A stretch of 64,000 bases of DNA from Pomphorhynchus laevis. Lineage: Eukaryota; Acanthocephala; Palaeacanthocephala; Echinorhynchida; Pomphorhynchidae. Shown piece after piece: positions 6,620 through 61,543 of this stretch. Position numbers and translations under genes: made by a program. The DNA lies in the NCBI GenBank assembly GCA_012934845.2, contig WNNJ02001732.1, positions 62,001 through 126,000 on the forward strand, written 5' to 3'. Below the pieces are notes generated by a model, which saw nothing but the letters and a program-made list of their open reading frames with translations, had not been told where the DNA came from and ran no database searches. Each line of letters opens with the position of its first letter. Within the stretch, counting starts at the first letter, position 1.

Positions 6620-8617
6620 CTACTTCTTTACTTTGTCCTTCTTCTTTTTAGAATATTTCCCTCCTTCTTTCTCATCGTCTTCCTCATCTTCTGCGTTTTG
6701 CTCAACATTTTCGGCTTCCTGTCTCAAAGATGGCTTTTCTGATATATTCAGATCATCTGCCTTTAAAGAACCTTCACCAACACTATTTCTTTTGATTGAC
6801 TGCTTTCCTTCGCTTACAGCTACACTTTCTTTTGGATCCATAGATGCATTTGGCATAGATTCATCTTCTTTATTAATTTCTGCTCCTTTTTCAACGGCTG
6901 CACGCTCTTCTTTAACTGCACTTTTTCTTAGTGAATCTCCTTGCGTAGCACTTTTTCTAGGCGGTTCTTTCTGTGTAACGCTTTTTCTCAGCATTTCTTC
7001 TTGTGCGGCACTTTTTCTCAGCGATTCTTCCTGTGCAGCGCTTGTTCTCAGCGGATCTCCTTGTGTAGCACTTTTTCTAGGCGGTTCTTCTTGCACAGCG
7101 CTTTTTCTCAACGATTCTTTTTGTACAGCACTCTTTCTCGACGCATCTTCTTGACCAATGCTCGTTTTACGCTGTAAAGAACTCTCTCTTGTACTCTTTC
7201 GATCTACAGACTTTAATCCTGAGTTCACCTCACCTTCCACTTGCTCAACTGCTGGCTCTTTATCTGGATCAGGATCAACTGGATCCTCTTGAATCGACCT
7301 TTTAAGCGATGATCGTGCATTCTGCGAAGCACGAGATAACGGTTCATTTGAGGCCCCTTGAACCGGATCTGTTTGCTTTGACACAATTTCAGATTTATCA
7401 GTAAGCACAGATACACCGGGTAATAGCTTACCTTCCAGTAACTCTAATGTAGCCCCACCACCTGTACTCACATGCGTGACACGATTACTTAGCTCCCATT
7501 TCATCGCTGCTGCAGAAGTATCTCCGCCACCAAGTAATGTTATCGCACCATCAACAGTTCGTTCTGCAATTGCTTCTAATAATGACTTTGTGCCTTTATC
7601 AAATTTTTCCCATTCAAAAACTCCCATCGGGCCATTCCATATAACAGTTTTTGCCTGTGCAATTACTTGTTTAAAAGCATCAATACTGCCTTGACCTATA
7701 TCTAAGCCCATCCAGTCCTTCGGAATGCCCTCTTCTTTGGTGCATATTTTAGTTTCGGCATCCGGATCCATTCTATTGGCAATTATAAAATCCAACGGTA
7801 AATGTATAGCAACCTCTTGCTGATCTGCCTTCTGCATAATGGCCTTAACATCTTCAACTCCTTCTTCGTCAAAAAGTGACTGCCCAATTTCAATTTCATA
7901 TAAAACTTTTAGAAACGTGAAAGCCATTCCGCCTCCAATTATCATGACATTTACCTTGTCTAGTAGATTTTCAATGAGTTTGATCTTATCGTGTACTTTG
8001 GCACCACCAATGATGGCTAGAAAAGGTGCTTCAGGTGCAGACATTATTTTGGTGAATATATCCAATTCTTTCTTCATCAGAAGACCAGAAGCCTTTGTGG
8101 CCATACCCACACCTACAATTGAACTATGTGCACGATGTGCGCAGCCGAAGGCATCATTGACGTAAACATCACCTAATCGAGTAAGCATTTCCCTAAATTC
8201 TATTACTGTTTCAGGTACAGGGTCTTCAGTATTTTCTTCCTGCTCATAGTATCGCACGTTTTCCAGAAGAATAATTCTACCTCCGGATGCCGCATTTATG
8301 GCTTTTTCAACACAATTACCAACACAGTCGTCAATGAATGTTATCTGTTCGTTCATTAGCTTAGACAGACATAAGGCAATTGGGTAAAGAGAAAGAGTTG
8401 CGTCTCTACCCTTAGGGCGTCCCAAGTGGCTCAAGAGAACAACACATTTTGCACCTTTCTCACGTATTAGCTTTAAAGTTGGCAGTGTTTCTCGTATTCG
8501 GTTATCATCGTTTACTTTTCCGTCGTTGTCGATAGGACAATTAAAATCTACGCGTACAAGAACCCGTAAATCGTACAAATCAAGATCACTTACAGATACT
8601 TTTTCAGTTATATTCAT
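6620..8617 (-). CDS. PGK: Phosphoglycerate kinase with a long repetitive C-terminal extension (665 aa)
   Basis: Glycolytic enzyme converting 1,3-bisphosphoglycerate and ADP to 3-phosphoglycerate and ATP in the cytosol. Family blocks appear in order: RVDFNCP (residues about 22-28, with Cys where most have Val), [83 protein letters not shown] (usually IGGGDTA) and [15 protein letters not shown]. The Asp and Asn of the first block, the substrate Arg/His residues and the nucleotide-binding Lys are present, so activity is plausible. The kinase domain ends near residue 415, where most family members stop. Here about 250 more residues follow: an acidic Pro-rich linker, about eight 10-residue RKSA(V/A/T)QEExL repeats, then an acidic stretch and a Lys-rich tail ([10 protein letters not shown]). 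The single exon and divergent blocks could mean a retrocopy or paralogue. The start is the first Met of the frame and fits family N-termini. Confidence 0.95.
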
Positions 8618-9075
8618 ACTCGAAATGTCTTTTTCACGATTAAAAAGTAAAAATTAACTTGAGAGGTATGCAAAATGGCGCTTTCGTCGTTAAGATTGTT
8701 GCACGGTTGCTACGTTATAAATTATCACCATAATGACAGTCACAATCTTAGTACTATATATTGATTAAACTTATAATTGGTCGAATAAGTTTGTTAGTTG
8801 GTATCGCAAAGCATTAATCAAGCATTTGACTACTGAGGTAATCATGAGTACCTCAGCATTGACTTGACTGAAACTAAGTCTAACATGTAAGTTGGATCAA
8901 ATACATACTAATGACGTATAGCAAAGGGCATTTTACTTAAAATCTAAATCAATATTTATTTTCAATTAAATTTGCATAATTTTAAATTTTTTTGTTACCG
9001 TAATCATTAATTATATGCTATTGATGCAATTACATATTGAAAAAATCATATTCGATATTAAATATTACACATATT
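8618..9075. other. Intergenic DNA upstream of PGK
   Basis: Presumably contains the PGK promoter, reading leftward, but no clear TATA or initiator element can be defended. Otherwise AT-rich with no coding similarity. Confidence 0.35.
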
Positions 9076-20100: not shown

Positions 20101-22845
20101 TGTATTACGGAAAATGAAAAAAATCATATCACTTTACTGAAGCTACTACATATTTTGTACTATAAATAAATTAAAAAATGAACATATATTTATCTTAAAA
20201 AGGAATTCTTAAAACCTTGTTTTTACGAACTATTAATATATAATATATCAAATGTAATTTGCTGTAATTTGCGAATAAAGTTGTCGCTCATCAGAAAAAA
20301 CAAATTTAAAGTGCAAAAATTGATAAATTCAATAATTTATCAATCCAGAATAAATTAGATCAGCTATCTGAGTATACGTATTTTATATTATTTATAAATT
20401 AAAAATAGTGCTAAATAAAATTCAAATAATTAAATAATAAATTACAAATAATTTTAAAAATAAATAATTGTTATATAATATTTTAAATAAATATAATTTA
20501 TTTAAATATAATATAATTTAAATAAAGTTAAAATTTAAAATTGAAATTTAAAATAAAAGTCAATTTTTATGAATTGACTAATAAATAACAAACGATGTAT
20601 CAGAATAAGGATTAGATGACATTAGGAGGAACTGTTATGTTATCAGGTTTCGGCAGCTACTACTCATCCCGACATAGAAGCTGGGCCAAATATATGCTAA
20701 TGGCGTATTTCTTTGATGAAATTTGATTATCTAGTGTCTTATTCTAATACAAAACATATTGCTATCCATCCATAAAATTCTTCCGCTTAATAGTTTAAAT
20801 AATTTTTTAATAATATTTTGTTGATTTGCATATTATAAATTTAATATTTTTATAATATTTTGTTGATGTATAATCAAACACTATAATAAAAATAAAAATA
20901 CATTAAACGAAAAATTCATTAGTAGAAAAATAATGTCGTATCAAAAATAATGTCGTATCAATAATACATAGTTTCAGTATTTCAGTTTTTTAGTATAATA
21001 TACATTATATTTAGGGATTTCTGACAGAGGCTATATTACCGGGAAAGCAAAGTTCATAGGCCAATAATAAGTTATCAGTAGAACAAATCAAATCAGATAG
21101 CTGAGTCTATTTTATACAATTCAACGGATGCTACATTTTTGGACAAAACATGTAGCTAATTTGCTCAAAAAACTTGCTTGAAAACTAGCAGAAAAATAAT
21201 AATATCGTATCAAGAATACATAGTTTAAGTATTTTTGACAGAGGTTATATTACCGGGAAAGCAAAGTCCATAGGTCAATAATAAGTTATCAGTAGAACAA
21301 ATCAGATCACATAACTGAGTCTACGTATTTTATATATAAATATAAATAAAGATAAATAATAGTTAATATAAGATAATCGTTAATCCATTCATAAAATCCA
21401 ATTATTTATTTTTAATAATATTTTTTTACAATGTATAAGTAATTTAATAATATTTTGTGATTTATACTTATCCATTATAAAAAATAGAAAAAATAATCAA
21501 GCAGAAAATAATTAAACATTAGCAGAAAAATAATAATGTGGTATTAATAATACATAGTTTCAGTATTTCTGACAGAGGTTATATTACCGGGAAAACAAAG
21601 TCCACATATCAATAATAACTAGCTTTTGCTAATGATCCTATTTGGTGAAGCAGTAGTGCTGATTTAGCACTTAATGTGAAGTTACAAGAAATCTTTCTGG
21701 TACTTCATACACATGACTCGTGTGCCGTATGCCATTAGTGCTGCATCCAGTAGTGGGAGGGATCAGGCATTGATGAGTCATTGTGATGACGAAACGGTAC
21801 TTGCTACCGTTCTTCCGCGTCTGGCTTCAATGATAACAAAATACTTTAGAGAATAATGTAACTTTAAAAAGATAAATATTTCAGTATGATATATTAGAAT
21901 ATTTCATATTATAAAAATATAAAGTAACGGTAACAACCTGGAAATGTGTGTAAAACTTCAATTTATTTAGATTTACATCTTGCCTTCAGATTTTATTTTA
22001 TTTATTTCTTTTACAATAATTTTTATTTATATAAATTAGAAATAAAAATAAATAATTATCTAAGATTAAAAACGATAAAATTTAAAATTGAAATTTAAAA
22101 TAAAAGTCAATTTTTATGAATTGACTAATAAATAACAGACGATACATTCAAATGAAGAGTAAAGGTCAACAGGAGGAACTGCTATGTAATCAGGTTTCAT
22201 CCATATTTATATAAGGCTGAAATATACTATAATAATAGTATATTATTTATTATCCATCCATAAAAACTTTCTGCTTAAGAGTTGAAATTTATTTTATATA
22301 ATATTATGTTGATTTATACATTGTAAATTTAATATTTTGATAATATTTTGTGATTTATACTTATCCATTATAAGAAATAGAAAAAATAATCAAGCAGAAA
22401 ATAATTAAACATTAGCAGAAAAATAATAATGTCGTATCAAGAATACATAGTTTCAGTATTTCTGACAGAGGTTATATTACCGGGAAAACCAAGTCCACAT
22501 ATCAATAATAACTTGTCAGTAGAACAAATCAAATCAGATAGCTGAGTCTACGTATTTTATACTATAAATTAGAAATGAAGATGAATAATAAATAATTCTA
22601 TAAGATTTTATACAATTCAACGGATGCTACATTTTTGGACAAAAATAAAATTAAAAATTAGAAATATTATCTTAAAAAAAATAAATTTTATAACTCAGAA
22701 TTTTAATACATAAATTTATACCGTCTAAATCGGCTGGAGAAATTCCAAGCTCTTCTGCTCTCCTAGATATTGTAGTTAACACACGTTCTAAGCTTTGTGG
22801 CAAACGATTTTCGTTAGGTTGTTGACGTTGATGCTGCGATTGTTG
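11152..22845 (-). CDS. SF3B2: Splicing factor 3b subunit 2 (SAP145), multi-exon
   Basis: Component of the SF3b complex of the U2 snRNP, which stabilises branch-site recognition in the nucleus. Exons on the minus strand, each bounded by AG and GT: about 22845-22722, 16670-16546, 16493-16212, 16162-16046, 15187-15026, 13827-13675, 13624-13475, 12186-11152 (stop at 11152-11154). Phases join cleanly; for example the single G ending the 22722 exon plus AG at 16670 makes a Glu codon. Recognisable blocks: RLPQSLERVLTTISRRAEE, DVSVEYVQEDF...YAYFKRISHHFK, KKMTRLSVAELKQLV, RPDVVEMHDVTATDPKLL, RNTVPVPRHWSGKRKYLQGK, IDYQKLHDAFFKYQTKP, IHGDLYYEGKE, PPPWLIAMQRYGPPPSYPN and FGYHAGGWGKPP, then an acidic region and a basic Ser-rich tail ending SFKF. 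Most introns are 49-1,200 bp; one of about 6 kb (16671-22721) is packed with transposon DNA. The N-terminal SAP region is not in the assigned exons. Confidence 0.93.
12640..13135 (+). pseudogene. LINE reverse transcriptase C-terminal fragment inside an SF3B2 intron
   Basis: Plus-strand translation gives IRILGVLFPDNQHWEPHIEATISKYLLRI, matching the LINE block 'kiLGv.fd.nl.W..HI', then after stops SYGYLTLINIDS and a weak downstream part. It lies antisense to SF3B2 in the 12187-13474 intron. Short and broken; assignment rests on one block. Confidence 0.45.
13828..15025. other. SF3B2 intron, AT-rich, with a 14-bp hairpin
   Basis: Intron sequence without coding similarity. A perfect inverted repeat lies at 13966-14000: 14-bp arms beginning atcacacgac around a 7-nt loop. 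Near 14475-14570 a phrase containing gattgatggtaaaaaata occurs in two or three tandem copies. Confidence 0.5.
15188..16045. other. SF3B2 intron, extremely AT-rich
   Basis: No gene or repeat family recognised. Short inverted pieces such as acttt...aaagt (about 15830-15935) can be seen, but nothing definable. Confidence 0.45.
16671..17517. other. Part of the large SF3B2 intron
   Basis: AT-rich with a tat-rich run at 16830-16900. A minus-strand reading frame at 17121-17480 contains ITDLSGKKVKSGVELLLVDR, but I do not recognise it, and it crosses a transposon junction at 17545. No confident exon. Confidence 0.35.
17545..19368 (-). pseudogene. APE-type LINE fragment (endonuclease plus first part of RT)
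   Basis: On the minus strand, from 19150 downward: DVDVVVLQETRSIRLPQDIT (endonuclease core), ANVYIRPGEIHKN, MILGDFNDRTGRW (catalytic GDFN), then a 199-residue linker (MLRRMFHFDPIRVACF... to 17949), VFIPKKKSCSCPKYLRPISI (RT block 1), FHGFVKGCSIHSAV (block 2) and DVFIDCSAAFDRI (block A, first catalytic Asp). The RT then ends abruptly at 17545 before the YxDD block. Frames shift at about 18550 and 17950 and near 17700. Direct repeats beginning acgtcggtagc flank the segment (17518-17544 and 19369-19397). Confidence 0.75.
19400..20559. other. Intronic AT-rich DNA with PLE-related repeats
   Basis: No coding similarity. At 19390-19440 a phrase (ctatattacc...gtcaataataag) begins that recurs several times up to 22530. 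It is probably non-coding PLE sequence. Confidence 0.4.
20560..20770 (-). repeat. PLE terminal module (copy 2, diverged)
   Basis: Minus-strand copy of the structured module followed by the end of a PLE reading frame (the tail seen as AARFLWMDN in relatives, near 20755-20810). The long helices are kept with changes: the ggcccc/ggggcc helix becomes GGC..AGC with GCT..GCC, while CTGATGA has become CTAATGT. Lies in the SF3B2 6-kb intron. Confidence 0.55.
21755..21815 (+). ncRNA. Hammerhead-like hairpin cluster
   Basis: TTGATGA (21770-21776; canonical CTGATGA with C3 changed to T), perfect stem GTCA/TGAC with a 6-nt loop, GAAAC (21791-21795), then a 6-bp stem ACGGTA/TACCGT (21794-21810). This is a hammerhead-like core apart from the first base, but a stem I around it is not convincing. 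Probably a decayed ribozyme of a small retroelement. Confidence 0.4.
22104..22290 (-). repeat. PLE terminal module (copy 3, partial)
   Basis: Carries the outer end (containing tttttatgaattgac), aggaggaactgctatg and a broken remainder without the ggcccc helix. Minus orientation, as in copies 2, 4 and 5. Confidence 0.5.
22722..22845 (-). CDS. SF3B2: SF3B2 upstream exon (partial), with in-frame stops just upstream
   Basis: Reads QQQSQHQRQQPNENRLPQSL then ERVLTTISRRAEELGISPADLD and ends G|GTATAA. Its phase joins exactly to the exon starting at 16670. The segment RLPQSLERVL corresponds to KIPQALEKIL of other SF3B2 proteins. The same frame continues upstream as YEDNAEPNYIQHVGSY, but with TAG (22879-22881) and TGA (22873-22875) in between, so either the acceptor is the AG just before 22845 or the upstream part is damaged. 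A PLE terminal module lies immediately beyond it. Confidence 0.75.
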
Positions 22846-34076: not shown

Positions 34077-35674
34077 TTAAATTTGATTTAATAGTATCTT
34101 ATTCCAATACAAAATATATTATTTATTATCCATCCATAAAAATTTTCCGCTAATGATTTTAAATTTATTTTTAATATTATTGTGTTGATTTATATATGTA
34201 ATTATTTTCTGTTTGATGGTATTTTTATAGTAACCTTGTTTAAAATATGTATCTATTAAATTATTCAAATGATTTTGAAGAAAGCCAATATCATTACAAA
34301 TTGTTGTATTCCTTAAAATTTCATTATTTAATGTTTATATTTTATATTATATGGTATGCATGAATGCTCATGCAAAAATATGTTTCTTGTAAATTTAAAT
34401 GTCATCTTTACGATATAAATTAAAAGTAGTTTTAATTGATGTTAATACAATGCTCATATCAAGATATATACTTTATTTATCATTAATATTAGTTTTATTA
34501 AGAATTAGGCTACTTGGATAAATGTGCTCACTAATTGAATACACATATATCATTAATGTATCGAAACATATATTTCATATATTTATATTGTTTAGATTTA
34601 GTTTTTACACAGTTATGAACAAATTCATATTCTATAAAGCTTAAAAATAAGTCAGCTATAATTGGGCTACTATTACCACCCATTGGAACACCTTTTACTT
34701 GTCTAAATATAGATGTCCCTACTTTTAAATAATTTTGATTTATTAAAATAGTTAAGGATTCTATTTATTCAATTTTATCCATATATTGTTATTTACTTGA
34801 TGGTTTAATTTTTGTTAGATATGCGTTATAGTTTTTATAACATATATATGTATATCTTCTTCCGAATATAAGATTAATTAATTTTTCTAATGCATCTTTA
34901 ATATCTGCTAAATCTAGATTGGTATAAAGCGTACTAAAATCGTACGTATTTATATTCTGAAAATTTATTCCTTTAATATTATATTTATATTTCTAAATAA
35001 TTAATATTAATTATTAATTAATACTGAAATAAAGTTTTATACCTGTATTAATTTCGATTATCCTACAATATTTTTCGAAGTGTGCTTTAATTACTTTAAG
35101 TATTTTATTCATAATAAACCGAAAGCGGTTTTAATGTACATTCAAAAGCACTACATATGAACCTTGGTTTTATTGAATTTTTATGTAATTTTAGATTTCA
35201 ATATAAAATAGGTATAGTTTTATTATCTAGTTCAACCTTTATACCCTTTTTATCCCTTATAGAACAGTGACTTGTAATAATTGTTTCTAAACTCAACTCA
35301 CTACGTTCATATGTTGGATTTACATTTAAATCATTAGAATTAACCTCTTTCATTAGTATATCATAATAAAGCTTTTTGCATATGAAGACAAAGTTATTAC
35401 TAGCTTTATCAATAGTTGTTATTATATAGTTATGCTTTAATTTAGTAAGTTCTTTATACATATCTTTATTAATTTGATCTTTCCTATTATAATTGTTTGT
35501 TATTTTAGTTTTCTCTCTAATTTTATCTAATATATAAGTTTTCCAAATGTTTATCTTTGATGTATGTAAGCTTTTACTATTAATCAGCTTATCAAAGTAA
35601 GCATTTAAGTCATTATATGTCGAATTGTAAATTTTATTTCTATTTTTATTATTATTTAATCTAATTTATACCAT

Positions 35675-36554
35675 TCAATAAAGTTTGCTTCGGACAAGGG
35701 AGCATCTTCGTGGTTATGTACCAAACCAACCCGAATGAGACATACGAGGCTAAATTCACAAGAGTTCCAAGACGCAATATGCGCAAGATACAATCTAAAA
35801 GCAAGCGAAACATCACTAAAATGTGCTTGTGGTTCTTACTTTACAACTTCTCATGCATTGTCATGTCATACTGGTGCCATGACTATTATCAGACATAACT
35901 TAGTGAGAGACATTGTAGCTAAGGAACTTGTAGGGGTATGCTGTGACGTGCAAATTGAGCCATGTTTACGATCTATACCAAACAACTACGTATTTAATAA
36001 GCCAACAACCTGCTCTGATGATCAAGCGCGGTCTGATATAGCTTGTAGAGGAATTTTCGGAGGAAATATGGTGCGATCCTTTTTGGACATATGTATTTAC
36101 AGCTCTTTGGCACCTACATACTCTTGCAAAACTCCTCTCGAATGCCATATATACCATCAACAGCGGAAATATGCAAAGTACGGTGAACGAATTGCAGATA
36201 TAGAAAGAGGTACTTTCTTTCCTCTTATATTTTCTACGTCAGGTGGTATTGGACCTGAGACAGATAAAATACTAAAATGGATAGCAGCCAAATCTGCTGA
36301 TCGTAATAAGCTTGCATACAGCGAATGTATTTCTAGGCTGAAATCAAAAATCAGTGTCGCCATTGCAGTTAGTGCATCGGTTTGTATACGTGCTACAAGG
36401 CTTAGAATAAACAAACAAGCACAGTATTATCAAACATAGTAAAAGATGGGCAAGCGTCTAAGATTTACATCAATGACTGATCAAAAAGCAAACAAATTTA
36501 AGGATATTATGTGTATTTGTTGTTTATTTTTATAATAAAAAAATATTAAAAAAA
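35675..36554 (+). pseudogene. R2-like LINE C-terminal fragment inserted in a PLE
   Basis: Frame 35735-36439 reads SQEFQDAICARYNLKASE, zinc knuckle CACG...HALSCH, then RHNLVRDIVAKEL, ARSDIACRGIFGGNMVRSFL plus DICIY (nuclease D..D block), YAKYGERIADIERG and FFPLIFSTSGGIGPETDKIL, ending in CIRATRLR and a stop. The 5' part up to about 35735 is in another frame. Same family as 43.0-44.8 and 52.8-53.8 kb. The interrupted PLE coding word aatggtata is found on both sides (about 35665 and 36555), a target duplication of about 10 bp. The 3' end is A/T-rich, as expected for a LINE. Confidence 0.75.
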
Positions 36555-36640
36555 ATTATACCATTTTGATAGCATTTTCCTTAATTCATTGTTTTCAATT
36601 AATTCTAGATTATGAGTGCATATATGTCCATTTATTTTAG

Positions 36641-37017
36641 TCACGGTACTGATGAGCTCCGTAAGAGCAAAACGCGTCCACCGTTGTTGAAGTTTGTCGT
36701 CACACATAGAATGACTGGGCATTGGGTGTTCCAGGGCAGGTGTAACAACACATTATATTTTATATATTTGCACACTTAAAAGTGTCCCTGTAAAACAGCA
36801 TTTCTATTAAAAGGAATTTAGTGCATGATGCATGGTTAAACAGTAATACACACTGCCATGCACAGAGCGCATGCTAAATTCTCTCTGATGATTCAAATTA
36901 GGGGCAGTTCTGCTTTTCGGACTTTGATCACTGTTTAAACGTGTGCTAAGGCGCCTACAGATGATTATTGTAGTCACGGTACTGATGAGCTCCGTTAGAG
37001 CAAAACGCGTCTACCGT
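36641..37017 (+). mobile_element. Retrozyme-like unit: 333-bp repeat bounded by two hammerhead motifs
   Basis: Two copies of a minimal type I hammerhead layout, 36643-36684 and 36976-37017, exactly 333 bp apart. Each has acggt(a) for stem I, CTGATGA, perfect stem II GCTC/GAGC with a 5-nt loop, AAAAC, two bases, GTC (cleavage site) and (t)accgt closing stem I. Known animal retrozymes and PLE-linked hammerheads have this layout (established knowledge). One odd base: the canonical GAAAC is AAAAC in both, which replaces G12, so activity is doubtful. The interior (36685-36975) has no ORF. Inserted in a PLE coding region, with similar words (ttatgag.gcatatatg and ttatgagtacatatatg) on both sides. 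Confidence 0.65.
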
Positions 37018-37569
37018 TTTTAATCTTATGGATGGTTAATGGTTAGGAATATATTTACTTTTATGAGTACATATATGTTCATTTGTTTTATCAAAATTGA
37101 GACTTTTGCAATTGCATTCTGTTTCTATAATGTTTCTAATATTATCGTTACATATTGATTTTAATTCTTTATTATAATTACAAATTTTTCGTCCTAATGG
37201 TAACAACTTATACCTTATTTTAGGAATATATTTACTTAAATCTGACCCTATTATTTCTTTACTTTTAGAATTATTTAAAAGTCCGGCTATATTTATGTTA
37301 TCTATACATTTATTAATGAAGTTTATGGTTAATGTATATTTTCTATTGTTATTATTAACATTTATTGTCCGATTATAGTATTTTGTATTACAATAACTGT
37401 CTATTATACAACTTAGCCTATCATAGTCGTTAATTAATTTTTGATTTATTGAACAAATGATATCTTTAGAAAAACTTTTAATATTTATAATTGTTAATAT
37501 TTTCAAGTTTATTTTTCTTATTCCTTATTTAATTATTCCTTATTCCTTACTTCATTATATAATGTAAAA

Positions 37570-46835: not shown

Positions 46836-47981
46836 ATGAAGAACAAGAAGGTTAAATCTACAAGTTATCAAGTACAGTGTGACTCTGATGATTGTCGACG
46901 CTGGTCGACGATTACAATCGCTACTGATTCAAATGATAATTCTAGTGGGTCATTTATGTGTGGATTTTGCGCTTCCCTGCGCATTCAATCACTAGAAGAG
47001 GAAATAAGTGTTTTAAGAAAAGCAATTCAAAATATAAATCATTGCCAGTGCAACATGAATTCCAAAGATGCATTAACAAATACATTCAATAACATCACTC
47101 CTGTTTTATCAAATTCAACTGTGCATTCTAGTGGGTCAATTGTAAATGTTCACAACAAGAGACTCGAAGTAAGCGATTGCATAATGGATCAGTGTACAAC
47201 AGGGAATGTGATATTGCAAAATTCCACTAACAATCATCATATCACTCCAATATCCAATATTACCCCACAAACTCACTCTACACGGGTATGGAAGAATATT
47301 AAAGGACGTCATTTTCGAAGTTCATCCAGTATTGGTCAACAAAATTTGCAACTTGATTCCAAACTTGGTGGATCCAACTGTAAAGATCATTCCAGGGATA
47401 TTAATTCAATGTCTAAATCGTCAGTGATGGTTGCAAATGTCGGAGAATTTTCCGTACATAAAACAGGAAACGGCCAGAATAAAGAACCATTAGCACAACC
47501 GCTAGATATTAATGCGCGAATGCGTGGCGAAAACCGAGATCGGTGCGTAATATTTGCTAATATACCGGAATCTAACTCTTCGGAGCCGCAGCTACGTATT
47601 GATCATGACGTGAGTAGAGTTCGGGAAGTATTATCAAAAATATTTACTTCAGGTGAGGAATCTATAGCCTCATCTCTTCTAGTGAAATCATTGTTCAGGT
47701 TAGGTAAGAAAAATGAAGAACGTCCACGCTTATTGAAAGTGGTATGTAAATCGTCCGACAATGTTAACGAGATCTTACGCAGAAGGTATAAATTAAAAGG
47801 TCAAATTACTAAAATCTTCAAGGATCTCAGCATTCAGGATCGTAAGATGCGACATCAAGCTTGGGAAGAGCTAAAGACCAGGAATGCTTCTGGTGAAAAG
47901 GACTTGACAATAAGAAATTTTCGTGTGGTTCGAAGAAAGCCATTTGTACGTTGGAATCCAATCGGTCCGTTAATTGCTTAG
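46836..47981 (+). CDS. LINE Z ORF1: PHD-like zinc finger, coiled coil and RNA-binding domain (381 aa)
   Basis: ORF1 protein of a CR1-like non-LTR retrotransposon, expected to bind the element RNA. The N-terminus has a Cys-rich PHD-like pattern (VQCDSDDCRRW ... MCGFCASLR) followed by a short heptad-like helix SLEEEISVLRKAIQ. The middle is Ser/Asn-rich and low complexity. The C-terminal third (RCVIFANIPES ... LLVKSLFRLGKKNEERPRLL plus KVV ... IFKDLSIQDRKMRHQAWEEL ... RNFRVVRRKPFVRW) resembles the RRM-like domain of CR1 ORF1 proteins. The frame is intact and overlaps the next ORF by 31 bp, a common ORF1/ORF2 layout in LINEs. Confidence 0.8.
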   Translation: MKNKKVKSTSYQVQCDSDDCRRWSTITIATDSNDNSSGSFMCGFCASLRIQSLEEEISVLRKAIQNINHCQCNMNSKDALTNTFNNITPVLSNSTVHSSGSIVNVHNKRLEVSDCIMDQCTTGNVILQNSTNNHHITPISNITPQTHSTRVWKNIKGRHFRSSSSIGQQNLQLDSKLGGSNCKDHSRDINSMSKSSVMVANVGEFSVHKTGNGQNKEPLAQPLDINARMRGENRDRCVIFANIPESNSSEPQLRIDHDVSRVREVLSKIFTSGEESIASSLLVKSLFRLGKKNEERPRLLKVVCKSSDNVNEILRRRYKLKGQITKIFKDLSIQDRKMRHQAWEELKTRNASGEKDLTIRNFRVVRRKPFVRWNPIGPLIA

Positions 47982-48973
47982 GTATTGATCCATCCTCGTT
48001 AGATATATTTCCTACTGGACTATCTATAAACGCAGGAACCAGTAAATGTTCAACTCCAATTATTAACGTCGCTTACACAAATATTCGTAGTATAGTATCG
48101 AAGATTGACGAATTTCGGAACAGATTCTTTACATATAAACCTCAAATAATCGCAGTTACCGAAACTTGGCTAAATCATGATATTGCTGATAGCATGGTAG
48201 CTGTGGATGGGTATTCGATCATCAGGGTTGATCGTAAAGTACGACGAGGAGGCGGTGTTGCACTTTATGTCGATCAATGTATAGGTGTTGACGATTTTGA
48301 ATGTTATACTGACACATATGGTACTTGTGAACTGATGGTGGCGAGTCTATCCCATGTAAGAAATAAAGTTACTATTGCACTATGTTATAGATCTCCATGT
48401 AGCTTCGTTCTCACTCAGGAATTCTCAGATATTTTGACAAAGGCAGCAATGGGTGACCGGTTCCTCTGTTTAGGGGACTTCAATATTTCCAGCATCAATA
48501 TGGATGATCCTCATTCAGGAATAATATTTTCTAGTAAACTAGATCATGACTTGTGGAATTTTCTGTTAGATAGCCTACTTCTTGTTCAGCATGTATCAGC
48601 ACCAACTAGGATTATGAATGATCAAAGTTCTTTGTTGGATTTAATTTTATCTAAATCATTAACAGATGTGCGTGACATTATGCATGAAGCACCCATAGGA
48701 GTTAGTGATCATTGTGTATTGCTTTTTCACTTCTCAGGGATTTCAAATAATATTATCGACGAAGTCGAAACTAAAATCTTCAAGCATTGTTGGTATCGTG
48801 CGGATCAGTGTAAAATTCTTCAAGCAGCATTGACTATGAACTTTGTAGGCGCTAGCGACGATGCTGAAGATTGTTGGAAAGTTTTCCGTTCAGCAATGTG
48901 CGAAATAATAGAAAAATACGTTCCTACCAAGATCGTGCATAAAAATAAAAAAAGTGAATCCTCCGTGGTTTAA
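47951..48973 (+). CDS. LINE Z ORF2 5' part: APE-type endonuclease (340 aa frame)
   Basis: Apurinic-like endonuclease that nicks target DNA to prime reverse transcription. Blocks: YTNIRSIVSKIDEF, VTETWLNHDIAD (catalytic Glu), IIRVDRKVRRGGGVALYVD, CLGDFNISSINMDD (GDFN), SLLDLILSKS and GVSDHCVLLF (SDH). All catalytic blocks look intact. The frame ends in SSVV* just after an A-rich run at about 48943-48953, while the RT continues in another frame from the same point, so a one-base indel has split one ORF2. Confidence 0.85.
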   Translation: MESNRSVNCLGIDPSSLDIFPTGLSINAGTSKCSTPIINVAYTNIRSIVSKIDEFRNRFFTYKPQIIAVTETWLNHDIADSMVAVDGYSIIRVDRKVRRGGGVALYVDQCIGVDDFECYTDTYGTCELMVASLSHVRNKVTIALCYRSPCSFVLTQEFSDILTKAAMGDRFLCLGDFNISSINMDDPHSGIIFSSKLDHDLWNFLLDSLLLVQHVSAPTRIMNDQSSLLDLILSKSLTDVRDIMHEAPIGVSDHCVLLFHFSGISNNIIDEVETKIFKHCWYRADQCKILQAALTMNFVGASDDAEDCWKVFRSAMCEIIEKYVPTKIVHKNKKSESSVV

Positions 48974-50861
48974 TAGAGAACTTAAATCAGAACTAAGACG
49001 AAGAAACCGACTGTTTAAATTAAGCTGCAAGGACAATACTTATCGACAGGAATACGTCAATTGTCGTAACTTTTTCGAAAAGCTTAAAAAACGCAAAAAA
49101 TTTAACTACGAAATAAGAATAGCTGCGGATTTTCATAGTGCACCAAAACGATTTTGGGCTCACATACGTAGAAATAGGACAATTCCTCCTGCGATTTCGT
49201 CTCTTCGTATTAATGATAACTTTATCACATCGCCTCAAGATGTAGCCGATACGTCTGCGTCGACTTTTCATCTCGTAACTAATAACACAGAAATTAACCA
49301 GCAATCCCGTGTAAGCCATTCACGAAGTTATTTTGATGTTACTACCGAGGAGGTTTATAGTGAGTTAAATTCATTACGACATTCATCACCTGGTCAGGAT
49401 GGATTACATCCCCAGATACTAAAGATATTATCAACATTTATTGCTTCATTGTTAGCTTATTTGTTTCAACTATCACTAGCTAAGTCAATTCTACCGTTAG
49501 ATTGGAAAATCGCCACTGTAGTGCCAGTCCACAAAAAAGGAGATCGTCACAATCCTGAAAATTATAGAGCAATAAGCCTTACAAGTGTCGTATGTAAGAT
49601 GTTAGAGCGCATATTGTATCGGCGATTACTATCCTATCTTGAATCATCGAACTTGTTAGATAATTCGCAACATGGTTTTCGTCCTGGACGTTCTTGCATG
49701 TCTAATCTTTTATGTGCACGCGAAGCATGGGTTGATGCAGTTGCGCAGGGTAATGCAGTTAATGTCGTGTATTTCGACTTCAGTCGGGCCTTTGATAGGG
49801 TTCCTCACAATATGTTGATTGATGCTCTTGCAGATTACGGAATTGAAATTCCTATTATTCGATGGATTCACGCTTTCCTATCTAATCGTTCTTTCAGAGT
49901 TCGAGTTGGAAATTGTCTATCTAGACCGTCAAATTTATCAATGGGTGTTCCTCAGGGATCGGTGTTGGGTCCATTATTATTCGTCATATTTCTGAATAGT
50001 TTGCTACGCTCTCTAAAATGTAAAAAATTAGCATTCGCGGATGATCTTAAAATATGGAATGTCATTACATGCTATGCCGATATGCAACACTTACAAGATG
50101 ACATAAATATGGTTAATAGGTGGAGCGAACTGACCGGAATCATGATTAACATTACTAAATGTGTCCACCTCAGATTTGGTCGTAGTGATTTACCAAATGA
50201 TTATTCTGTTTGCGGTGAGATTATTCCCACAAATTCGTATACAAAAGATCTTGGGATAATTGTTCAGAATTCGTTTAAAGCCGACCTCAATACTGAAAAT
50301 ATATGCAACACGTCGAGAAAAAGTATTTACATGATCAACAATATCTTTAGTTCGCTTCCACCGTCTCAGTTTTCACTATTATATAAGGCGTTGATCAGAC
50401 CAATCATTGATTATGCTTCGCCGGCGACTTTTCCTTCTACGCGTGGTGAAATAAACCAATTAGAAAAGATTCTTCGCCGATTTTCCAAGCTATGTTCTGG
50501 TCTTCGGAACATCGCCTACTGTAATAGACTAAGCCAACTAAATATTACTTCAGTTTACAAGAGATATGTGTACAATGATTTATTACAGTTATGGCGAATG
50601 ATCCATATCTTTCCTGGTTATCCATTGGAATCCGTTATTCTAAATGATCGCCCGAGCCACAGAGGACACTCTTTATCAGTTGTTGTGCAATCACACGGGA
50701 AATGTCATAGATACTTGCGATTATCTCACAGAGCGGTAAACCTATGGAACCTATTGCCGAATTCGATCGTGTCTATGGCACAGTACAAATCTTTCCAGAA
50801 TGCGCTGAGCATGTGGATAAAAAGAGAAGATTCTTTGCAGGAAATATATAACTATATGTGA
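48954..50861 (+). CDS. LINE Z ORF2 3' part: reverse transcriptase (635 aa frame)
   Basis: Opens with NPPWFNRELKSELRRRNRLF, the linker directly following the endonuclease. RT blocks in order: SPGQDGLHPQILKIL, VVPVHKKGDRHNPENYRAIS, QHGFRPGRSCMSNLL, VVYFDFSRAFDRVPH (block A), MGVPQGSVLGPLLFVIFLNS (block B), LAFADDLKIW (block C, FADD intact) and KDLGIIVQNSFK. Then the C-terminal LIRPIIDYASPATF and RAVNLWNLLPNSI. Uninterrupted to the stop and followed by a short 3' region ending in taa/ata repeats. Apart from the frameshift the element looks young. Confidence 0.88.
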   Translation: MNPPWFNRELKSELRRRNRLFKLSCKDNTYRQEYVNCRNFFEKLKKRKKFNYEIRIAADFHSAPKRFWAHIRRNRTIPPAISSLRINDNFITSPQDVADTSASTFHLVTNNTEINQQSRVSHSRSYFDVTTEEVYSELNSLRHSSPGQDGLHPQILKILSTFIASLLAYLFQLSLAKSILPLDWKIATVVPVHKKGDRHNPENYRAISLTSVVCKMLERILYRRLLSYLESSNLLDNSQHGFRPGRSCMSNLLCAREAWVDAVAQGNAVNVVYFDFSRAFDRVPHNMLIDALADYGIEIPIIRWIHAFLSNRSFRVRVGNCLSRPSNLSMGVPQGSVLGPLLFVIFLNSLLRSLKCKKLAFADDLKIWNVITCYADMQHLQDDINMVNRWSELTGIMINITKCVHLRFGRSDLPNDYSVCGEIIPTNSYTKDLGIIVQNSFKADLNTENICNTSRKSIYMINNIFSSLPPSQFSLLYKALIRPIIDYASPATFPSTRGEINQLEKILRRFSKLCSGLRNIAYCNRLSQLNITSVYKRYVYNDLLQLWRMIHIFPGYPLESVILNDRPSHRGHSLSVVVQSHGKCHRYLRLSHRAVNLWNLLPNSIVSMAQYKSFQNALSMWIKREDSLQEIYNYM

Positions 50862-60544: not shown

Positions 60545-60694
60545 TGAAATATGTGTTAGTAATGTTAACAATAATATTGTTAAAATATGGTGTTAATAAT
60601 AATGAAATATTGTGTCAATAATAGTGAATAATGTGATAGTATAAGTTAAATATGGTGATAATAATAATGAAATATGGTGTCAATTATGATGAAA
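60545..60694. repeat. Satellite array, left part
   Basis: Units such as atggtgttaataataatgaa, atattgtgtcaataatagtg and ggtgtcaattatgatgaaa are of the same type as the array at 62425-63645. The array is split by the PLE insertion at about 60695. Confidence 0.7.
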
Positions 60695-61543
60695 ATTATA
60701 AATAAAATACTTAAAGTAATTAAAGCACATTTTAAAAAATATTGCAAGGTAATCGAAATTAATACTGGTATAAAACACTATTTCAGTATTAATTCTACAA
60801 AAGAATTTTTAGAACAGACAAAAGGAATAAATTTTCAAAATATAAATACATACGATTTTAGTACGCTTTATACAAATCTAGATTTAGTAGATATTAAAGA
60901 AGCGTTAGTAAAATTAATTAATCTTATATTCGGAAAAAGATATACATATATATGTTATAATAATTATAACGCCTATCTAACAAAAATTAAACCATCAAGT
61001 AAATATAAATATATGGATAAAATTGAATTAATAGAATCCTTAAATATTTTGATAAATCAAAATTATTTAAAAGTAGGGACATCTATATTTAGACAAGTAA
61101 AAGGTGTTCCAATGGGTGGTAATAGTAGCCCAATTATAGCTGACTTGTTTTTAAGCTTTATAGAATATGAATTTGTTCATAACTGTGTAAAAACTAAATC
61201 TAAACAATATAAATATATGAAATATATGTTTCGATACATTGATGATATATGTGTATTTAATTCTAATAATTTTTATTCAATTAGTGAACAAATTTATCCA
61301 GAAAGTCTTATTCTTAACAAAACCAATATTAATGATAAAGAAGGTGTATATCTAGATATGAACATTAAATTAACATTAACTAAAACTATTATTAATTTAT
61401 ATCGTAAAGATGACATATTTAAATTTACAAGAAACATATTTTTGCATGAGCATTCATGCATACCATATAATATAAAATATAATACATTAAATAATGAAAT
61501 TTTAAGAATTGCAACAATATGTAATGATATTGGCTTTCTTTAA
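60674..61543 (+). pseudogene. Penelope-like RT, family 2 (copy D), best-preserved
   Basis: The 289-residue frame begins in satellite sequence and continues into RT: VIKAHFKKYCKVIEINTGIK, INTYDFSTLYTNLDLVDIKE (block with the first catalytic Asp), FRQVKGVPMGGNSSPIIADL (block B-like), RYIDDICVFN (catalytic DD), YPESLILNKTN, YLDMNIKL and FLHEHSCIPYNIKYNTLNNE. It ends at a premature TAA where copies A and E read FLQNHL, so one C-to-T change created the stop. The last part is missing by deletion (about 61560-61600). No N-terminal domain: 5'-truncated. Confidence 0.78.

Follow-up and report, generated by a model that had tools for sequence, protein, structure and literature searches.

A 463-bp hammerhead repeat family of Pomphorhynchus laevis with array junctions that point to a probable Penelope-like helper

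A decayed retrozyme copy and its neighbours

The window, i.e. the whole 64,000-nt stretch of Pomphorhynchus laevis DNA analysed here, contains an insertion of 421 bp (36640 to ca. 37060) that begins with a hammerhead motif, carries a second one further downstream and interrupts a reverse-transcriptase (RT) element located on the minus strand. The features of this area are listed in Table 1. A preliminary description, made from the letters of the window, had reported two type I hammerhead-like motifs in the same direction and 333 bp apart; both are found on the plus strand, in direct orientation and with this spacing, and they differ from each other at 3 of 47 bases while each retains its 4-bp GCTC/GAGC stem II, as had also been stated. 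Each motif is further composed of CTGATGA, AAAAC, a stem III with two pairs closed by a loop of two bases, and GTC as the cut triplet, so that the stem and core layout first proposed stands for all of these parts but not for stem I of the first motif, in which one pair, by reading, is broken (A-C). No match above the gathering score was obtained when the window was scanned with Rfam, in which both motifs correspond to weak Hammerhead_HH9 matches (20.4 and 19.2 bits, for a gathering score of 52).

Table 1. Features at the retrozyme insertion and in the element that it interrupts, in window coordinates
Feature	Positions	Strand	Evidence
Left target-site duplication, imperfect, 30 bp	36610..36639		L059/L060 alignment and direct repeat
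First hammerhead, type I, G12 to A, one broken stem I pair	36640..36685	+	Motif reading, Rfam, family alignment
Shortened unit body, 130 bp missing after ca. 36722	36686..36972	+	Genome-wide unit comparison
Second hammerhead, G12 to A	36973..37018	+	Motif reading, Rfam, family alignment
42-bp filler between second hammerhead and right duplication	37019..37060		Last 18 bp match 37220-37237
Right target-site duplication	37061..37090		L059/L060 alignment and direct repeat
Part of the interrupted RT-element target, open stretch broken by the insertion	37036..37524	-	L059/L060/L063 comparison
Same RT-element target, continuation beyond another repeat	35198..35665	-	L059/L060/L063 comparison

The extent of the insertion was deduced from two uninterrupted copies of the target (L059 and L060, both on contig C670), which align leftward from 36639 and rightward from 37061 with an overlap of 30 bp. 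Because these targets use the same 30 bp twice, the insertion is taken to cover 36640-37060 and to be flanked by a 30-bp target duplication, which was also found independently as a direct repeat and which shows 3 mismatches in 29 bp. The element had first been bounded by its two hammerheads; this pair is in place, but the insertion runs on through 42 bp of non-retrozyme filler up to the right duplication. The end of the filler (37043-37060) is an exact copy of a nearby piece of the target, such as template-switching repair would leave.

The unit itself had been proposed to measure 333 bp. Comparison across the genome instead gives a unit of 463 bp, the exact length of 34 out of 76 monomers, from which the window copy differs by the lack of 130 bp, with the gap located at a short shared word. 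Genomic matches to the window stretch mostly begin at query position 80, which indicates that sequence was lost there in the window copy. The latter is 12% divergent from the family consensus in the stretch compared and does not have the typical 3' end of the family. Overall, the window stretch is a decayed, internally deleted and ordinary dead retrozyme copy that belongs to a new family of a known kind.

The interrupted element had been described as a Penelope-like element (PLE), which was not confirmed. In L063, this element is followed by an RT frame, and a related RT frame of the window (60671-61543), for which 32 database relatives were found, matches RVT_1 at a sub-threshold score (27.7 bits, for a cut-off of 29.6). 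Among the candidates scored for GIY-YIG (150 of 795), none gave a match on the contig of the window, and no match to the window was obtained with the GIY-YIG PLE of L066 (see below). Another repeat, at ca. 35660-36570, lies inside the same RT element and adjoins the retrozyme; it has at least 40 genomic matches and a frame with no Pfam match.

Elsewhere in the window, LINE-type endonuclease and RT frames occur at 47897-48973 and 48912-50861, and a relic with ca. 75% identity to a 310-bp hammerhead repeat (see below) at 21622-21827 represents a second, unrelated retrozyme-like fragment. A phosphoglycerate kinase frame (6620-8653, minus strand) encodes 677 aa, including an extra C-terminal part of ca. 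250 aa that may correspond to a fusion or to an unspliced intron; its best matches among solved structures are phosphoglycerate kinase 1 chains of mammals, as would suit an animal host.

The 463-bp family and its array ends

The genome searched comprises 249 Mb in 3,242 contigs, in which the window stretch has at least 142 matches on at least 39 contigs; these counts are a lower bound, with 39 contigs scored out of 1,272 candidates and chosen by likeness to the window copy. A 30-base motif allowing up to 3 mismatches is found at 846 + 840 = 1,686 genomic sites, with 0 sites for the reversed control. In the 39 loci, 73 of the 76 monomers measure between 459 and 466 bp, and the largest array contains ca. 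20 units and reaches the end of its contig. The G+C content is 38.4% for the consensus and 32.7% for the window. The retrozyme-like layout initially recognized in the window is supported by these many tandem copies, the consensus of which displays the full hammerhead core. With 421 bp for the insertion and 463 bp for the unit, the repeat is too short to encode an RT and is therefore not itself a PLE.

The ends of the arrays were located in these same 39 loci, with positions that may shift by some bases where the alignment enters AT-rich flanks. The 3' ends (n = 50) fall into two clusters, with 22 at unit positions 189-206, 15 at 245-262 and 13 elsewhere, whereas only 3 of 48 5' ends lie inside these same two windows and the distribution of the 5' ends as a whole is not clearly different from uniform (KS p = 0.08). 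A large number of 3' ends have the sequence GTGATATATAT... or CAAATTATATAT... and continue into TA repeats. Such repeats (at least 6 units) were found at 17 of 49 3' junctions versus 1 of 23 5' junctions and 13 of 1,824 background 60-mers, while no poly(A) tail was seen in the 60-bp 3' flanks viewed. The counts of 3' ends leave out L027 and L044 (contig ends) and two fragments (the minus arm of L016, 47 bp, and L020, 36 bp), and those of 5' ends leave out the plus arm of L017 and L038. They include the 3' ends of L040 and L042, located 26 and 4 bases from the contig start, and that of L034, which is counted outside the clusters and the sequence of which corresponds to a cluster-A end after a small rearrangement.

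When two arrays are joined in inverted orientation, they are so 5' to 5', with their 3' ends facing outward, in 11 out of 11 cases. The two preferred windows contain the starts of both arms in 6 of these 11 pairs and that of at least one arm in all 11. The L016 pair is included despite a gap of 211 bp; more distant arrays were not counted as joined, namely those of L020 (673 bp apart, 5' ends facing) and those of L017 and L037 (ca. 870 and ca. 720 bp apart, 3' ends facing).

The window copy is the only one for which a clear target duplication was found. At 22 other single-orientation arrays, none was clearly above control and none was clear beyond the TA tracts. One target repeat was hit in two loci, and two paralogues of this repeat hold just a short AT-rich stretch at the site. 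A pre-existing long TA microsatellite is a doubtful target in view of these paralogues, and the long TA tracts may for the same reason arise at or after insertion.

In silico folding of the unit as a circle gave a predicted energy of -122.5 kcal/mol (z = -2.4 relative to 100 dinucleotide shuffles, 3 of which were as low). Pairing in the unit is lowest for the 14-nt window that starts at position 236, and positions 191-198 lie in another loop. Both stretches at which 3' ends cluster would be situated where the predicted circle is weakly paired, and the top-ranked 14-nt window is contained in the second of them.

Other hammerhead repeats and a Penelope-like element in the same genome

Two further families with hammerheads were detected. 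The first, a 296-bp repeat, carries Hammerhead_1 motifs that exceed the gathering score, and ten loci, corresponding to eight distinct places, were considered for it: 6 of 10 usable 3' ends fall at 183-186, with several running into TA repeats, and the joined pairs are 5' to 5' in 3 out of 3 cases. The second is a 310-bp hammerhead repeat that was discovered beside one array of the 463-bp family. In 39 loci, scored out of 1,561 candidates, all 22 joined pairs (gaps below 150 bp) are 5' to 5'. The alignment ends of this family, the list of which was compiled by hand, form on the 3' side two clusters of 20 and 16 out of 56, in windows of 8 and 21 nt, versus 0 and 4 out of 55 for the 5' side in the same windows. 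The 5'-side ends are themselves uneven, with 10 of 55 at positions 16-21, a cluster that may be due to a local indel breaking the alignments. Over the three families, joined inverted pairs are 5' to 5' in 36 out of 36 cases.

Two loci (L065 and L066) contain a 5'-truncated element with a GIY-YIG domain (26 bits, for a cut-off of 22.6) and, downstream, a hammerhead-like string that was not scored by Rfam. We take this element to be a PLE, based on its domain order and on the known layout of Penelope proteins. The two loci are 98.5% identical over 1,579 bp and are therefore not independent. A better-scoring GIY-YIG hit on contig C1660 (L064), the best obtained, was rejected as a PLE: this contig carries a uvrC-like frame and others of bacterial appearance, which we assume to be bacterial, and is likely a contaminant of the assembly.

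Of the other PLE copies aligned, 37 of 38 end at query positions 267-292, i.e. ca. 117-142 nt downstream of the hammerhead-like string. Six junctions, two of which are identical, were viewed, and all lie no more than a few bases from ...TATTTATTA or from a close variant of it. Two copies have a short inverted arm that is joined 5' to 5', both arms ending at one site located ca. 35-40 nt upstream. Based on these junctions, the PLE too appears to have two stop sites and to form 5'-to-5' pairs (2 of 2 seen in a partial survey). TA repeats, present at many retrozyme ends, are absent from the six ends viewed in the PLE, two of which are identical.

Comparison of the PLE ends with the retrozyme start sites (A and B) gave, once composition was controlled, values of 0.04 and 0.14 for site A and of 0.19 and 0.28 for site B. 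The best matches to the PLE ends in the 463-bp unit fall at both of its 3'-end sites, but those in the 296-bp unit do not fall at its 3'-end site. A short word shared upstream of site B, which was found after looking, has a local-shuffle frequency of 0.008, and a DNA search for sequence common to the PLE and the retrozyme returned short AT-rich words only. This likeness is suggestive at best.

Candidate route of movement

These data suggest that the 463-bp retrozyme probably moves by reverse transcription of a circular RNA into nicked AT-rich DNA, carried out by the machinery of a PLE. Transcripts of an array would cut themselves at each hammerhead and close into 463-nt circles, while the enzyme would cut both strands at AT-rich DNA. 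The freed DNA ends would then prime at two AU-rich regions of this RNA (unit positions ca. 195-202 and ca. 250-258) and copying would run for a variable distance along the template, giving tandem copies with random 5' ends. Should both DNA ends be used as primers, the two resulting cDNAs would be joined to each other by their 5' ends. The window copy would likely be an old product of this process, with decayed ribozymes, from which 130 bp and the 3' end are now missing. Clustered internal starts, 5'-to-5' pairs and an AT-rich target, the features looked for as signs of PLE-like movement, all appear to be present at the junctions. The help of a PLE reverse transcriptase, which had been put forward from the window alone, receives indirect support from array junctions located elsewhere in the genome, and it is from these junctions that we infer the link to a PLE.

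Movement by a LINE, in which the self-cut RNA would undergo target-primed reverse transcription by an endonuclease-RT retrotransposon, with twin priming at the origin of inverted pairs, is rather unlikely. Frames for such an enzyme are present in the window (see above) and twin priming, as known for LINE-1, likewise makes 5'-to-5' pairs. With this process, the second arm is expected to start from scattered internal sites, however, while the arms of the 463-bp family use the two preferred windows as described above. The 3' flanks viewed are also free of poly(A), and it is the PLE of the same genome that has two stop sites and 5'-to-5' pairs.

Less probable again is the view that the family is at present a plain satellite, devoid of any RNA stage, in which the hammerhead persists as a relic. 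The window copy would agree with it, being 12% diverged and displaying, in both motifs, the AAAAC in place of GAAAC that had been pointed out initially. In 126 motif copies, however, position 12 is occupied by G in 117 cases, by A in 8 and by T in one, so that AAAAC is not the core of the family; of the 126, 105 have kept the catalytic core and 92 have kept the core as well as the 12 stem pairs. Variation per site is lower in the hammerhead (2.6%) than in the rest of the unit (4.2%), a level that only 6 of 371 other 46-nt windows reach, and several arrays include units that diverge by no more than 1-2% from the family consensus.

As to A12 itself, both an inactivation and a variant core had been envisaged. 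The first agrees with the data, A12 being more frequent in old copies (5 of 25) than in young ones (2 of 91; Fisher p = 0.005), while the second does not agree with the neighbours of these copies: for each of the 7 A12 copies compared, G12 is present in all four of the closest copies from other arrays. Since it is commoner in old copies and since its nearest outside relatives carry G12, A12 is best regarded as a product of decay and not as a new core. A variant lineage is not supported either, A12 copies being scattered, and decay of a CpG was rejected as the cause of the change, with G to A occurring at 2.75% in CpG versus 2.99% at other G.

Slightly less credible still is a satellite that would spread with no RNA step as extrachromosomal circular DNA, the TA-rich parts of the unit recombining with TA repeats of the genome. 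The arrays are often in contact with such repeats, and they contain mixed and locally duplicated units such as unequal exchange would produce. A single exchange, however, would give an array that starts and stops at the same point of the unit, while the 3' ends are clustered and the 5' ends spread; the constant 5'-to-5' polarity over three families is not expected either. Finally, a chance pair of hammerhead-like strings, which the Rfam scores below gathering might have allowed, is virtually ruled out by the 1,686 genomic sites against none for the control and by the alignable 463-bp units.

The composition of the arrays bears on the template used by the proposed reverse transcription. In arrays having at least two full units (n = 11), the mean difference between units is 4-7% in 8, ca. 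2% in two and 10.6% in one, for 7.1% between arrays. Copying of one rolling circle per array is inadequate for most of them, because the units of 8 of the 11 arrays differ nearly as much as arrays do; template switching, multimeric templates or later recombination may account for this heterogeneity. The units of L016 are nearly equal, as expected from one circle copied repeatedly. In L010 (2313-4305), two unit types alternate, one of which has the core CTGATAA (G8 to A) that is expected to block cutting. This alternation, which is broken by the 3'-most unit, would fit a two-unit circle as template.

The 463-bp family has in common with the non-LTR retrozymes of metazoans, as presented in the portions considered here of Cervera and de la Pena (2020, PMC7229834), a type I hammerhead, short dispersed tandem repeats, a G+C content below 45%, a PLE in the same genome and a circle that is predicted, in the present case, to be self-paired. 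According to the same source, these repeats are expressed as circles, and PLEs are strong candidate helpers, a proposal based on shared hammerheads, tandem copies and co-occurrence. Metazoan retrozymes are there given as repeats of 150-450 bp with RNAs of ca. 170-400 nt, circles of 150 to over 1000 nt being also mentioned, so that the unit described here is slightly above their range; their target duplication, when present, exceeds 4 bp, and that of the window copy measures 30 bp. Plant LTR retrozymes also have units bounded by two hammerheads and thought to move as circular RNA (PMC4918200, in the part considered), but they carry type III hammerheads, LTRs and 4-bp target duplications, in contrast to the type I hammerheads and the 30 bp of the window copy (PMC7229834). 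With its stem III of only two pairs and a two-base loop, the motif further resembles the minimal PLE hammerheads that act as dimers (Lunse and others 2017, as cited in the part considered of PMC7761336), although it occurs in a non-coding tandem repeat and not in a PLE pseudo-LTR. Since this stem is so short, pairing between neighbouring units may be needed for a transcript to be competent for cleavage.

The closest parallel at the level of the junctions is provided by Poseidon, a PLE of Anolis, the enzyme of which, in vitro, cuts AT-rich DNA and extends both strands; its reverse transcription begins inside the template, at two neighbouring sites, which accounts for the tail of PLEs (Frangieh and others 2024, PMC11167929, in the sections considered). 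Two adjacent internal starts, an AT-rich target, the use of both strands and a hammerhead near the starts are common to both systems, those of the 463-bp family being read from genomic junctions only. The two differ in that Poseidon is an autonomous PLE with a protein while the repeat is non-coding, in the distance between start sites (30-40 bp versus ca. 55 nt) and in that the Poseidon start site is described as not homologous to the cut DNA, whereas many ends of the repeat enter TA repeats.

Array junctions were mapped here, while none are in the portions considered of PMC7229834; for Schistosoma repeats, the part considered of PMC8490949 names a target duplication for one element and contains no junction mapping. 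A literature search by title and start of abstract, with most subscription journals outside its range, likewise found no mapping of retrozyme array junctions. What appears to be new here is genomic junction evidence for the suspected PLE helper of retrozymes.

As a tentative and more general extension, for which the case is somewhat short of even, animal retrozymes would parasitise PLEs: their circles would mimic the pair of start signals of a PLE, a pair of PLE enzymes would cut both target strands and load each end with RNA circles that are copied towards each other, and several unrelated hammerhead repeats of one genome would have converged on this solution. The interest of the locus lies in the insertion signature of the relatives of the window copy and not in the window copy itself. 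These junctions make the idea that a PLE enzyme returns animal retrozymes to DNA testable. If right, this idea would provide defined RNA stretches to mutate and would explain how a gene-less repeat of a few hundred bases has reached more than 1,000 sites.
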